A stretch of 51,828 bases of DNA from contig QHSL01000087.1 of NCBI GenBank assembly GCA_003220435.1, positions 1 to 51,828 on the forward strand. Reading direction: 5' to 3'. This DNA comes from Candidatus Rokuibacteriota bacterium (GTDB lineage Bacteria; Methylomirabilota; Methylomirabilia; Rokubacteriales; CSP1-6). The translations under genes were made by a program, and so were the position numbers. A model generated the notes under the pieces. That model was not told the origin of the DNA. It did no database searches and was given only the letters and a program-made list of their open reading frames with translations. Of the stretch, positions 38,634 through 50,305 are shown piece by piece (the first letter of the stretch is position 1; each line of letters opens with the position of its first letter).

Positions 38634-39350
38634 ATGACCGACCGCGCGCGGTGGGCGATCGTCACGGCCGTCCTTTTCGTGCTGCTGTCCCTCGTCATCT
38701 GGCTCGTCGTCTCCGATGCCCCGATCGTCAAGTTCCTGGTCCGCCTCTACCAGGACAAGAAGTTCCTGAAGGAGACCGTCAGGTCGTGGGGCTGGCTGGC
38801 TCCGCTGGTCTTCATCGCGATCCAGGCCCTGCAGGTGATCATCTCGCCGATCCCCGGCGAGATCACCGGGCCCGTCGGCGGCGCGCTCTTCGGGACGTGG
38901 CTCGGACTCATCTATTCGACGATCGGTCTGACGATCGGCACCCTCTTCTGCTTCTGGGTGGGGCGCAAGTGGGGCGAGCCGCTCGTGCGGCCGTGGCTCA
39001 GCGAGCACAACTGGAACCGGATGAACTTTATCCTCGAGGCCGAGGGCGCGATCATCTGCTTCGTCCTGTATTTCACCCCCGGCTTCCCCAAGGACATCAT
39101 CTCGTACCTGTTCGGAATCAGCCCGATGCCCTTCTGGCTCTTCGCCATCGTGTCGACGGTCGCGCGGATCCCGGGCACGTGGATCTCGTCCTATTTCGGC
39201 GCTCACGTGGCCGAGCAGCAGTACGTCTACGCCGTCGTCTTCCTGGCGATCGTGCTGGCGTTGTGCCTGCCGCTCTACTACTACCGCGACCGTCTGATCG
39301 GGCGGCTCCACAAGCCGCGCCGCCGTAGGAAGCGTCAAGAAAGTGCTTGA
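38634..39350 (+). CDS. TVP38/TMEM64 (DedA-like, VTT-domain) membrane protein
   Basis: This is a 238-residue inner-membrane protein of the SNARE-associated/VTT-domain family. It has an N-terminal helix (AIVTAVLFVLLSLVIWLVV), a re-entrant region with SPIPGEITGPVGGALFG (the family's glycine-rich loop), further helices around IIYSTIGLTIGTLFCF-like and ICFVLYFTPGFPKD, and a basic C-terminal tail (PRRRRKRQES). Some members scramble or flip lipids, including polyprenyl-phosphate carriers, which would fit a cell envelope role. Only this general role can be assigned. It follows the amidase by 21 nt. Confidence 0.87.
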   Translation: MTDRARWAIVTAVLFVLLSLVIWLVVSDAPIVKFLVRLYQDKKFLKETVRSWGWLAPLVFIAIQALQVIISPIPGEITGPVGGALFGTWLGLIYSTIGLTIGTLFCFWVGRKWGEPLVRPWLSEHNWNRMNFILEAEGAIICFVLYFTPGFPKDIISYLFGISPMPFWLFAIVSTVARIPGTWISSYFGAHVAEQQYVYAVVFLAIVLALCLPLYYYRDRLIGRLHKPRRRRKRQESA

Positions 39351-39375
39351 CGGTCGCAACCCTGCTCGGTACACT
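39347..39375 (+). promoter_or_regulatory. Promoter of the aroF leader
   Basis: TTGACG (39347-39352), a 17-bp spacer, and TACACT (39370-39375) form a near-consensus housekeeping promoter. Its -35 overlaps the last codons of the TVP38-like gene. Transcription should begin near 39382, about 6 nt before the leader-peptide ATG. Confidence 0.75.
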
Positions 39376-39387
39376 CCGCGACACACT

Positions 39388-39465
39388 ATGGGCACCTCGA
39401 CCCGCACCTACGGGTTCTTCACGTTTTTCTACTTCACCGAGGTCTGCCCAGGCACTCTGACTTGA
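39388..39465 (+). CDS. Aromatic-rich leader peptide of the aroF attenuator
   Basis: This is a 25-residue peptide, beginning MGTSTRTYGFFTFFYFTEVC, with five Phe and two Tyr, of which six aromatics fall in seven residues (GFFTFFYF). Such a run of Phe/Tyr codons between a strong promoter and a DAHP synthase gene is the classical design of an amino-acid-sensing leader: ribosome position on the Phe/Tyr codons (39415-39435) reports aromatic amino-acid supply. No Shine-Dalgarno precedes the ATG, so initiation is probably leaderless-like. It is too short to be expected among annotated genes. Confidence 0.85.
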   Translation: MGTSTRTYGFFTFFYFTEVCPGTLT

Positions 39466-39552
39466 ACTAGACAGAGGGCCGCGGGCAGGCCGAACGCCCG
39501 CGGCGCCGACCGATACCAGGCCGCGGGCCCACCCCCGCGGCCTTTTGTTTTT
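39444..39552 (+). promoter_or_regulatory. Five-segment transcription attenuator controlling aroF
   Basis: Segments that can pair in alternative ways follow the Phe codons. A (CTGCCC 39444-39449, CTCTG 39455-39459) pairs with B (CAGAG 39472-39476, GGGCAG 39483-39488). B (GCCGCGGGC 39478-39486) pairs perfectly with C (GCCCGCGGC 39496-39504). C pairs perfectly with D (GCCGCGGGC 39520-39528). D pairs with E (CCCGCGGCC 39534-39542) to form the terminator. If the ribosome stalls early on the Phe codons, A:B and so C:D can form, preventing D:E. If it reaches the stop at 39463 it covers A, B:C forms, and the D:E terminator follows. The logic is inferred from pairing alone. Confidence 0.85.
39519..39552 (+). 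terminator. Intrinsic terminator of the aroF attenuator
   Basis: GGCCGCGGG-CCCACC-CCCGCGGCC (39519-39542) is a perfect 9-bp GC stem with a six-base loop, followed by TTTTGTTTTT. It is the most canonical terminator in the window. Confidence 0.92.
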
Positions 39553-39597
39553 CAGGAACCGACAACCCGCCCGTCAGAAAGGACCGGGCGAACGACG

Positions 39598-39789
39598 ATG
39601 GACAAAAGAAGCGGGACTGGAACGACAGGACCGGAACGGCGGCACAGGAACCACGGGCCAGGAACCATGAGCAGGGGCCACAAGGCAGGAAGGATAGAAG
39701 CGGGCGTGCGGAGCCGGGTCGCATCTCTCTCAGGCCACCCTCGGCGTGAGCCGGCCTCAAGGCACCCGCTACAACGGAGCCACACATGA
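39598..39789 (+). other. aroF 5' leader after the attenuator; contains a doubtful 63-codon basic frame
   Basis: From the terminator to aroF (39553-39785) there are about 230 nt without a recognisable gene. They are purine-rich, with repeated GGAAC/GGACCGG words between 39610 and 39690. A 63-codon frame (MDKRSGTGTTGPERRHRNHG at its start, very basic) begins at 39598 and ends with TGA overlapping the aroF ATG (ATGA). It lacks a good ribosome site, and the low-complexity sequence makes it doubtful as a protein. It could be a second coupling leader or simply an untranslated region. Confidence 0.35.
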
Positions 39790-40802
39790 TCATCGTGCTC
39801 AAGTCCGGAGCTACCGATGTCGAGGTCGAGGACGTCTGCCATCGGATCACGTCGATGGGCTACAGCCCCCACACGATCCGCGGCGCACTGCGTACCGTGA
39901 TCGGCGCGGTCGGTGACGACCGCGGCAAGGAGGCGCTGCGCAGCCTCGAGTCGCTCGAATGCGTCGAGTCCGTCACGCCAATCCTCAAGCCCTACAAGCT
40001 CGCCAGCCGCGAGGTGCGCGACGAGCCGACCGAAGTTCGCGTGGGCGACGTGACGATCGGTGGAAGGGCGATCGTGGTCATGGCCGGCCCATGCGCGATC
40101 GAGTCGCGGCTGCAGCTGCTCGACGCCGCCGAGAAGGTGAAAGCGGCCGGCGCGCGGGTCCTGCGCGGCGGCGCCTTCAAACCTCGCACCTCGCCCTACG
40201 CGTTCCAGGGGCTCGAGGACGAGGGGCTGAAGCTGCTCGCCGAGGCGAAGCGCGAGACCGGGCTGCCGATCGTCACGGAAGTCATGGAGCCCGACAAGGT
40301 CGAGCTGGTCGCCGAGTACGCCGACATCCTCCAGGTCGGCGCGCGCAACGTCCAGAACTTCTCGCTACTCAGACGCGTCGGCGAGGCGGGGAAGCCGGTG
40401 CTCCTCAAGCGAGGCATGGCGACGACGATTCAGGAATGGCTCCTGTCGGCGGAGTACGTGCTCGCCAGCGGCAATCGGAACGTCATCCTCTGCGAGCGCG
40501 GCATCCGCACCTTCGAGACCGCCACGCGGTTCACGCTCGATCTGAACGCGGTGCCCGTCGTGAAGAAGCTCTCGCATCTGCCGATCCTCGTCGACCCGAG
40601 CCACGGCACGGGCCACTGGGAGTTCGTCGAAGCGATGGCCCTGGCCGGTGTGGCCGCCGGCGCGGACGGGCTGATCATCGAGGTGCACCCGAAGCCCGAG
40701 GAGGCGCTCTCGGACGGCCCGCAGTCCCTCAAACCCGAGCGGTTCGCCGCCCTGATGACGCGTGTGCGGAGGATCGCTCAGGCTATGGATCGAGACCTGT
40801 AG
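39786..40802 (+). CDS. aroF: 3-deoxy-7-phosphoheptulonate (DAHP) synthase with N-terminal regulatory domain
   Basis: This is a 338-residue DAHP synthase of the type I-beta (Thermotoga-like) group. It has an N-terminal ferredoxin-like regulatory domain of about 70 residues ([20 protein letters not shown]) and then the barrel. Conserved blocks are [97 protein letters not shown] and [18 protein letters not shown]. It makes DAHP from PEP and erythrose-4-phosphate, the first step to aromatic amino acids. The N-terminal domain usually mediates Phe/Tyr feedback. Control at transcription is by the attenuator upstream. The ATG at 39786 follows CGGAGCC. Confidence 0.95.
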
Positions 40803-41922: not shown

Positions 41923-41997
41923 AGGCTCGTAGCTCAGTGGGAGAGCGCCTCTCTGACGCAGAGGAGGTCGGCGGTTCGAAACCGCCCGAGCCTACCA
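41923..41997 (+). tRNA. tRNA-Val (anticodon GAC), CCA encoded
   Basis: The cloverleaf is complete: acceptor AGGCTCG/CGAGCCT, D stem GCTC/GAGC with loop AGTGGGA, anticodon stem CCTCT/AGAGG with loop CTGACGC (anticodon GAC at 41955-41957), and T arm GGCGG-TTCGAAA-CCGCC. The discriminator A and CCA (41994-41997) are in the DNA. It reads valine GUC/GUU codons. It lies directly before thrS. Confidence 0.95.
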
Positions 41998-50090: not shown

Positions 50091-50095
50091 GAGGA

Positions 50096-50275
50096 TGTCC
50101 CTGCGCTGTTCGTGATGCCGGGGGGAAGTTTCAACCTCGTTTACAAAACGGGAGCTGTGGAAGAGGGCGGTGTGCAAGCCCCTCTCGAAGGGGAAGCCTG
50201 AAGCCCTCCGATTAACGGCACCCACCTGGTAATACCAGGTTCGAAACACCTTCGGCACACGGCAGAGGTGGGGAT
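50096..50275 (+). ncRNA. ssrS: 6S RNA
   Basis: This is about 180 nt between zapA and rny, the usual location in related bacteria. The architecture follows 6S RNA: a closing stem (GTCCCTGCGCTGTTCGTGAT side with GGCACACGGCAGAGGTGGGG side); a 5' bubble strand with GTTTCAACC; an apical stem-loop CCCCT-CTCGA-AGGGG (50179-50193) followed by GAAGCCTGAAGCC; and in the 3' bubble CACCC with the small hairpin ACCTGGT-AAT-ACCAGGT (50224-50240), as in E. coli 6S where a hairpin follows CACC. The GTGCAAGCC...GGGGAAGCC pattern recalls GAGCAUGCUC...GAGAAGCCU of E. coli. 6S RNA mimics an open promoter and holds sigma-70 RNA polymerase. Ends are approximate. Confidence 0.87.
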
Positions 50276-50305
50276 TTGACTCCCTCACTCGGTGGCCCCT
50301 ATACT
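50276..50305 (+). promoter_or_regulatory. Promoter of rny, placed for leaderless transcription
   Basis: TTGACT (50276-50281), 18-bp spacer and TATACT (50300-50305). The rny ATG begins only 6 nt after the -10, so the transcript should start at or within a base or two of the A of ATG. The -35 touches the 3' end of the 6S RNA. Confidence 0.75.

Follow-up and report, generated by a model that had tools for sequence, protein, structure and literature searches.

The intergenic element at 39347-39552 of the DNA analysed here (the window, a stretch of 51,828 nucleotides from a Rokubacteria genome of the Methylomirabilota, whose nearest contigs are named Candidatus Rokuibacteriota) sits between a gene for a VTT-domain membrane protein and aroF, and raises the question of whether, and by what means, it controls the gene that follows. 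The original prediction read it as an attenuator with a promoter, a 25-residue leader peptide and a terminator; its coordinates hold, all three parts are present (Table 1), and the gene downstream encodes, as supposed, a type I-beta DAHP synthase (NF006421, E 2.5e-154; TIGR01361, E 4e-122; domains PF18152 and PF00793). We conclude that the element is very probably an attenuator of transcription mediated by the ribosome, through which aroF, the first gene of the aromatic amino acid pathway, is adjusted to how much charged Phe-tRNA (and Tyr-tRNA) is available.

Table 1. Features of the aroF attenuator locus, with positions in the window.
Feature	Position	Strand	Remark
VTT-domain membrane protein gene	38634-39350		upstream of the attenuator; ends just before the leader
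Promoter	39347..39375	+	-35 TTGACG 39347-39352, 17-nt spacer, -10 TACACT 39370-39375
Leader peptide gene	39388..39465	+	ATG 39388 to TGA 39465; 25 codons; MGTSTRTYGFFTFFYFTEVCPGTLT; no Shine-Dalgarno
Regulatory codons Y8, F10, F11, F13, F14, Y15, F16	39409..39435	+	sequence
Segment 1 (UGGGCACCUCG)	39389..39399	+	start of leader gene; pairs with segment 2; absent from the original prediction
Segment 2 (CGAGGUCUGCCCA)	39438..39450	+	A of the original prediction; end of leader gene; pairs with 1 or 3
Segment 3	39478..39491	+	B of the original prediction; 39483-39491 pairs with 2, 39478-39486 with 4
Segment 4	39496..39504	+	C of the original prediction; pairs with 3 or 5
Segment 5	39519..39528	+	D of the original prediction; pairs with 4 or 6
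Segment 6 and U-run	39534..39552	+	E of the original prediction; with segment 5 forms the intrinsic terminator
GGAG, likely ribosome binding site of aroF	39776..39779	+	sequence
aroF, presumed controlled gene	39786..40802	+	type I-beta DAHP synthase with N-terminal ferredoxin-like domain

Within the 1.1 kb from 38900 to 40000, the promoter TTGACG-17-TACACT is the only sigma-70-like site (0.1 expected), and 39 of 50 relatives have a recognisable TTGAC-N17/18-TNNNNT 5' of their leader. The leader gene had been described as leaderless-like, which agrees with the position of its ATG, 12 nt past the -10 hexamer; a transcript begun at the usual distance from the -10 (6-7 nt) would carry ~5-7 nt ahead of the ATG. 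The distance from -10 to start codon is 9-13 nt, i.e. near-leaderless, in 35 of the 39 main-group relatives whose promoter can be recognised; in a second group of relatives the leader is longer and a Shine-Dalgarno-like GGAGG is present. The closest relative (L083; G016:C27) has lost the -35 together with the last part of the upstream gene but retains leader and attenuator, and aroF there may depend on upstream transcription. Across both strands of the window, a single short ORF in 447 has at least five F/Y in 8 residues, and this is the leader gene, in which F10 lies at 39415, F16 at 39433 and the stop codon at 39463. The terminator (39518-39543 plus TTTGTTTTTC), which ends in TTTTGTTTTT, is the sole terminator-like site in 38900-40000, a result that is not significant alone (0.6 expected); the RNA from 39383 to 39552 folds at -78.3 kcal/mol (z = -5.3 vs. 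dinucleotide shuffles). The gap between terminator and aroF (39690-39785) holds a dispersed ~75-nt repeat with 51 matches in its own genome, some of them in tandem, and an RNA stability no greater than that of shuffles.

The original prediction counted five pairing segments, with perfect 9-bp B:C, C:D and D:E pairings and an extra A:B pairing at the end of the leader gene; all of these are present, A:B having 9 pairs with one G-U, and the list appears incomplete by one, a probable sixth segment at the leader-gene start. Numbering the segments 1 to 6, we reasoned that they could act as follows, where we infer the transcription start, the ribosome positions, termination and Phe over Tyr as the signal. 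RNA polymerase would start a few bases 5' of the leader ATG. When Phe is plentiful, the ribosome would reach the stop codon and cover segment 2, leaving 3:4 and then the terminator 5:6 to form, and transcription would end before aroF. When Phe is short, the ribosome would stall at F10-F13 and disturb segment 1; with one of these codons in its A site it would cover ~12-15 nt downstream, so that segment 2 (39441-39449) would be left free to form 2:3, segment 4 would be released to take segment 5, and, with 4:5 formed in place of a terminator, aroF would be transcribed. A point against the scheme is that a ribosome halted at Y15 or F16 would occupy segment 2, so that no induction would be expected from these codons. 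On an untranslated leader, 1:2, 3:4 and 5:6 would form and transcription would terminate; leader translation is thus predicted, from helix 1:2, to be required for read-through.

Stepwise folding agrees with this scheme. The minimum free energy (MFE) structure of the untranslated leader RNA includes 1:2 (39389-39399 with 39438-39450), and its folding gives 1:2, 3:4 and 5:6; folding downstream of a ribosome at the stop codon gives 3:4 and 5:6. In stepwise folding with a ribosome stalled at F10, 2:3 forms by 39494 (-33.5 kcal/mol), is joined by 4:5 at 39530-39536, and both stay the MFE structure until segment 6 is nearly complete; this, with the positions of the segments, agrees with the earlier claim that stalling at the early Phe codons prevents termination. 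Against it, when segment 1 is masked in the full-length RNA, the equilibrium MFE is 2:3 plus the terminator 5:6. As 4:5 (-21.5 kcal/mol) and 5:6 (-22.3 kcal/mol) are nearly equal, read-through would depend on 4:5 forming first and persisting, which is a kinetic argument.

Covariation in relatives, on which the original prediction had staked itself, is present: the mutually exclusive terminator and antiterminator structures are both kept with compensatory changes. We aligned 54 sequences, 47 from Rokubacteriaceae and 7 from NC10/Syntrophia, in which 2:3 plus 4:5 formed in 97.8% of pair cells (slid controls ≤50%), with a covariation score of 0.213 vs. 0.150 in shuffles (0/500) and 26 vs. 6.6 double-change cells; the alternative, 3:4 plus 5:6, formed in 99.2% of pair cells (slid controls ≤55%), with 44 vs. 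11.7 double-change cells (0/500) and a covariation score above all 500 shuffles. Taken singly, helix 2:3 (9 pairs, 39441-39449 with 39483-39491) was kept in 98.3% of cells, 3:4 in 98.8% (one pair shows GC-to-AU double changes in 20 sequences), 4:5 in 97.3% (double changes present) and 5:6 in 99.8%, and the 9 nt past the 5:6 helix contained 5-8 T in 54/54 sequences. In Syntrophia, the alignment pairs 72:99, 99:128 and 128:144 co-change (CG, GC, CG to UA, AU, UA); these linked changes keep 3:4, 4:5 and 5:6 alike, as a relay through segments 3-6 demands. Because shuffles ignore relatedness, the slid controls and the linked changes carry more weight.

The expected conservation of leader peptide and pairing segments upstream of aroF was found in nearly all Rokubacteria, an aromatic-rich leader and the same helices preceding the gene in nearly every Rokubacteriaceae aroF region examined. 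The peptides themselves vary (GFFTFFYF, RFFYFVYF, LFYFYFF, GFFFYYF, WRFYFFYF, etc.) and keep their aromatic cluster except in genus g10 (L113, L118, L181), where the helices are kept and the leader has few, scattered aromatic codons; this counts against the attenuator reading, and the signal there has perhaps changed or weakened. Tandem aroF copies occur in G023, G024, G034, G036, G049, G051-G053, G055 and others, and in the four gap-separated cases examined no leader gene was found in the gap between the copies. The locus has a leader ORF rich in codons for the pathway product, mutually exclusive terminator and antiterminator, and an intrinsic terminator before the structural gene; both alternative states, the order promoter-leader-terminator and the folding support its reading as an attenuator.

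Whether segment 1 takes part is the point on which the nearest competing explanation turns. In an attenuator of five segments, only 2:3, 3:4, 4:5 and 5:6 would matter, and these four helices do have much stronger comparative support than 1:2, whose register shifts between relatives; a simple duplex test for segment 1 gave a mean z of -0.76, with 18% of sequences below 0.05. Nonetheless, the mean probability that segment 2 pairs with the start of the leader is 0.68 across 50 relatives vs. 0.48 in shuffled sets (sd of their means 0.037; 0/60 sets), and in the second group the partner of segment 1 changes along with it, as judged by eye (GCAGACG:CGTCTGC in L125, CGGACG:CGTCCG in L130). If helix 1:2 did not exist, 2:3 plus 4:5 would form on an untranslated leader and allow read-through; we regard the five-segment version as unlikely. 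Helix 1:2 is probably real, with weaker comparative support than the other helices, which makes a six-segment chain; six segments rather than five explain termination of the untranslated leader and give a his-type topology, for which folding and the segment 1 statistics yield a default of 1:2, 3:4 and 5:6, with 2:3 and 4:5 predicted on a stall.

A covariance model built from segments 2-6 matched 73 of 95 Methylomirabilota genomes (E 0.01) and 152 of 345 Desulfobacterota genomes (E 0.001). At least five aromatic residues in 10 were found in 61 of the 71 Desulfobacterota leaders examined, vs. 1.6% in shuffles, the first positions of the model (TACTTC) favouring a Tyr-Phe pair and not a cluster. 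These aromatic-rich leaders stand mostly in front of genes for making or transporting aromatic amino acids, and the genes downstream at the loci examined include DAHP synthases I-beta and I-alpha, 2-amino-3,7-dideoxy-D-threo-hept-6-ulosonate (ADH) synthase, class I/II aminotransferase, periplasmic binding proteins of ABC transporters and phenylacetate-CoA ligase. Phe-rich leader attenuators stand before phenylacetate-CoA ligase (PaaK) genes at L229, L246, L247, L278 and L282, all in Desulfobacterota, and may point to the making of Phe from aryl acids rather than to degradation. Also downstream are trpE, behind leaders with Trp codons, and leuA and ilvB, behind leaders rich in Leu, Ile or Val. 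At L258, L263 and L267, DAHP synthase genes have Trp-rich leaders (WWW, WRWWW), probably Trp-sensing versions of the same design.

A second strong match was found in the window's own genome, at C14:31076-31205 (G000; L178 1076-1205; E 1.6e-9), where a Leu/Ile/Val-rich leader (LVVGLILLALPG; MTRMTSRALVVGLILLALPGPPGASAS) precedes pyruvate phosphate dikinase (ppdK), with acetolactate synthase (ilvB) 45 nt beyond it and a second promoter-like site between attenuator and ppdK; further copies of the Leu/Ile/Val type occur in six relatives, and the type is present in several Rokubacteriaceae. Together, the aroF and C14 copies indicate that one RNA design is put to use for two families of amino acids in this genome. 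The segment-2 core GTCTGCC occurs in all three leader frames (25, 9 and 15 loci), indicating that the RNA rather than the peptide is constrained there, and common descent is the simplest reason for sequence conservation beyond pairing.

Besides attenuation, the terminated leader RNA or the peptide could also act in trans, in the manner of rnTrpL/peTrpL, a trans-acting leader RNA and peptide of Sinorhizobium; a stable, highly conserved terminated RNA would presumably be plentiful, but the peptide's ending follows the RNA constraint through three reading frames, and we think such an added role improbable. Still less probable is direct sensing of a metabolite, by a riboswitch or by a leader to which a protein binds, a reading that the sequence conservation of the core GTCTGCC/GGCAGAC beyond the needs of pairing, over two phyla, might suggest. 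Leaders of this family are rich in codons for the pathway's own product, no conserved unpaired pocket was seen in the alignment, and an Rfam scan of the window and 17 loci at the gathering threshold produced no leader-family or T-box match in the window or the attenuator loci, returning 6S RNA, a tRNA and clostridial T-boxes alone. The 6S RNA (50095-50278) and the tRNA gene (41923-41994) both lie on the + strand of the window. Finally, that the hairpin merely terminates the VTT-domain gene, which ends just before the leader at 39350, and that the aromatic ORF is accidental, is hardly credible, since a promoter lies between, the leader and its alternative pairings persist at loci with a different upstream gene, and 2:3 and 4:5 are kept despite being unneeded for termination.

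The ribosome-mediated attenuator favoured here has several known counterparts. The enterobacterial pheA and pheST leaders likewise combine a Phe-rich leader with mutually exclusive hairpins, but have another layout and other genes, and no Rfam leader family matched here. Clostridial aroF is preceded by T-boxes at L029 and L039 (Rfam), where termination ahead of the same gene is controlled by uncharged tRNA, which in that case binds the RNA directly, without a leader peptide. The probable topology is that of the his attenuator of Salmonella and E. coli, whose segments A-F form A:B and E:F when untranslated and B:C and D:E on a stall (PMC4046918): the six segments, the default and stalled pairings and the logic are the same. 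However, the his leader senses His through 7 His codons in a row, whereas here the codons are Phe/Tyr, the leader gene is near-leaderless and the 3:4 and 5:6 stems share the same sequence; the sequences of the two attenuators are unrelated. In C. glutamicum, an Actinobacterium, the aroR leader has a short Phe-Tyr-Phe run before a DAHP synthase gene and is reported to respond to Phe and not to Tyr (Neshat 2014 via PMC11802643; PMC4046766), a likeness at the level of leader and gene. The Acholeplasma uORFC-13-1 motif before aroF is likewise a predicted Phe-sensing leader with a terminator (PMC8632094), but it is a computational prediction in another phylum, with a different motif and at least one Phe codon. 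The original prediction had held that attenuation of a type I-beta DAHP synthase is not known to be described in this kind of bacterium; for a DAHP synthase gene it is described elsewhere, in C. glutamicum aroR-aroF, while for the lineage no description of attenuators of this kind in Methylomirabilota or Desulfobacterota (Rokubacteria, Deltaproteobacteria, Desulfovibrio, Geobacter) was found in the open-access library searched, no leader peptide being mentioned in Rodionov 2004 on metal-reducing delta-proteobacteria. This is a known kind of switch; what is new here is the lineage and gene, and an occurrence much wider than the window.

How a relay of this form could arise is suggested by the runs of T behind the first hairpin. 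The 9 nt past segment 4 contain 0-3 T in 47/47 Rokubacteriaceae vs. 6-8 in 6 of the 7 NC10/Syntrophia sequences, and outside Rokubacteriaceae at least 4 of the 8 nt after the first hairpin are T in 48 of 69 loci, so that both hairpins there look like terminators; single-hairpin relatives, with 3:4 as terminator, also exist (L188, L189, L194, L195, L055). In the tandem group, each locus's own 4:5 pairing is stronger than permuted pairings (-16.7 vs. -14.9 kcal/mol; 0/1000), with the limits that the model used to pick these loci was itself one of such stems, and that hairpin stems in all genomes share a consensus (GCC-R-Y-GG), by which cross-pairing of tandem terminators becomes partly automatic. 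We tentatively entertain, at a little short of even confidence, that the element is part of a single homologous family of aromatic leader attenuators, absent from catalogues, which spans Methylomirabilota and Desulfobacterota and grew out of a duplicated terminator hairpin. On this view one terminator (2:3 vs. 3:4) came first; two in a row followed, their stems able to pair with each other (4:5), which would let a single stalled ribosome disable both; and in Rokubacteriaceae the first U-run was then lost, leaving a pure relay. The direction of this series is a guess; if true, the series from one terminator through tandem terminators to relay would offer a testable route to six-segment attenuators.

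These results extend leader-peptide attenuation to two phyla for which no description was found. The covariance model detects the element and yields predictions of the genes that respond to the supply of aromatic amino acids in bacteria that are mostly uncultured; these include ADH synthase, which provides an alternative first step, and a phenylacetate-CoA ligase. This soil bacterium, of the uncultured group Rokubacteria, appears to gauge a shortage of Phe and Tyr by translating a tiny, aromatic-rich peptide.
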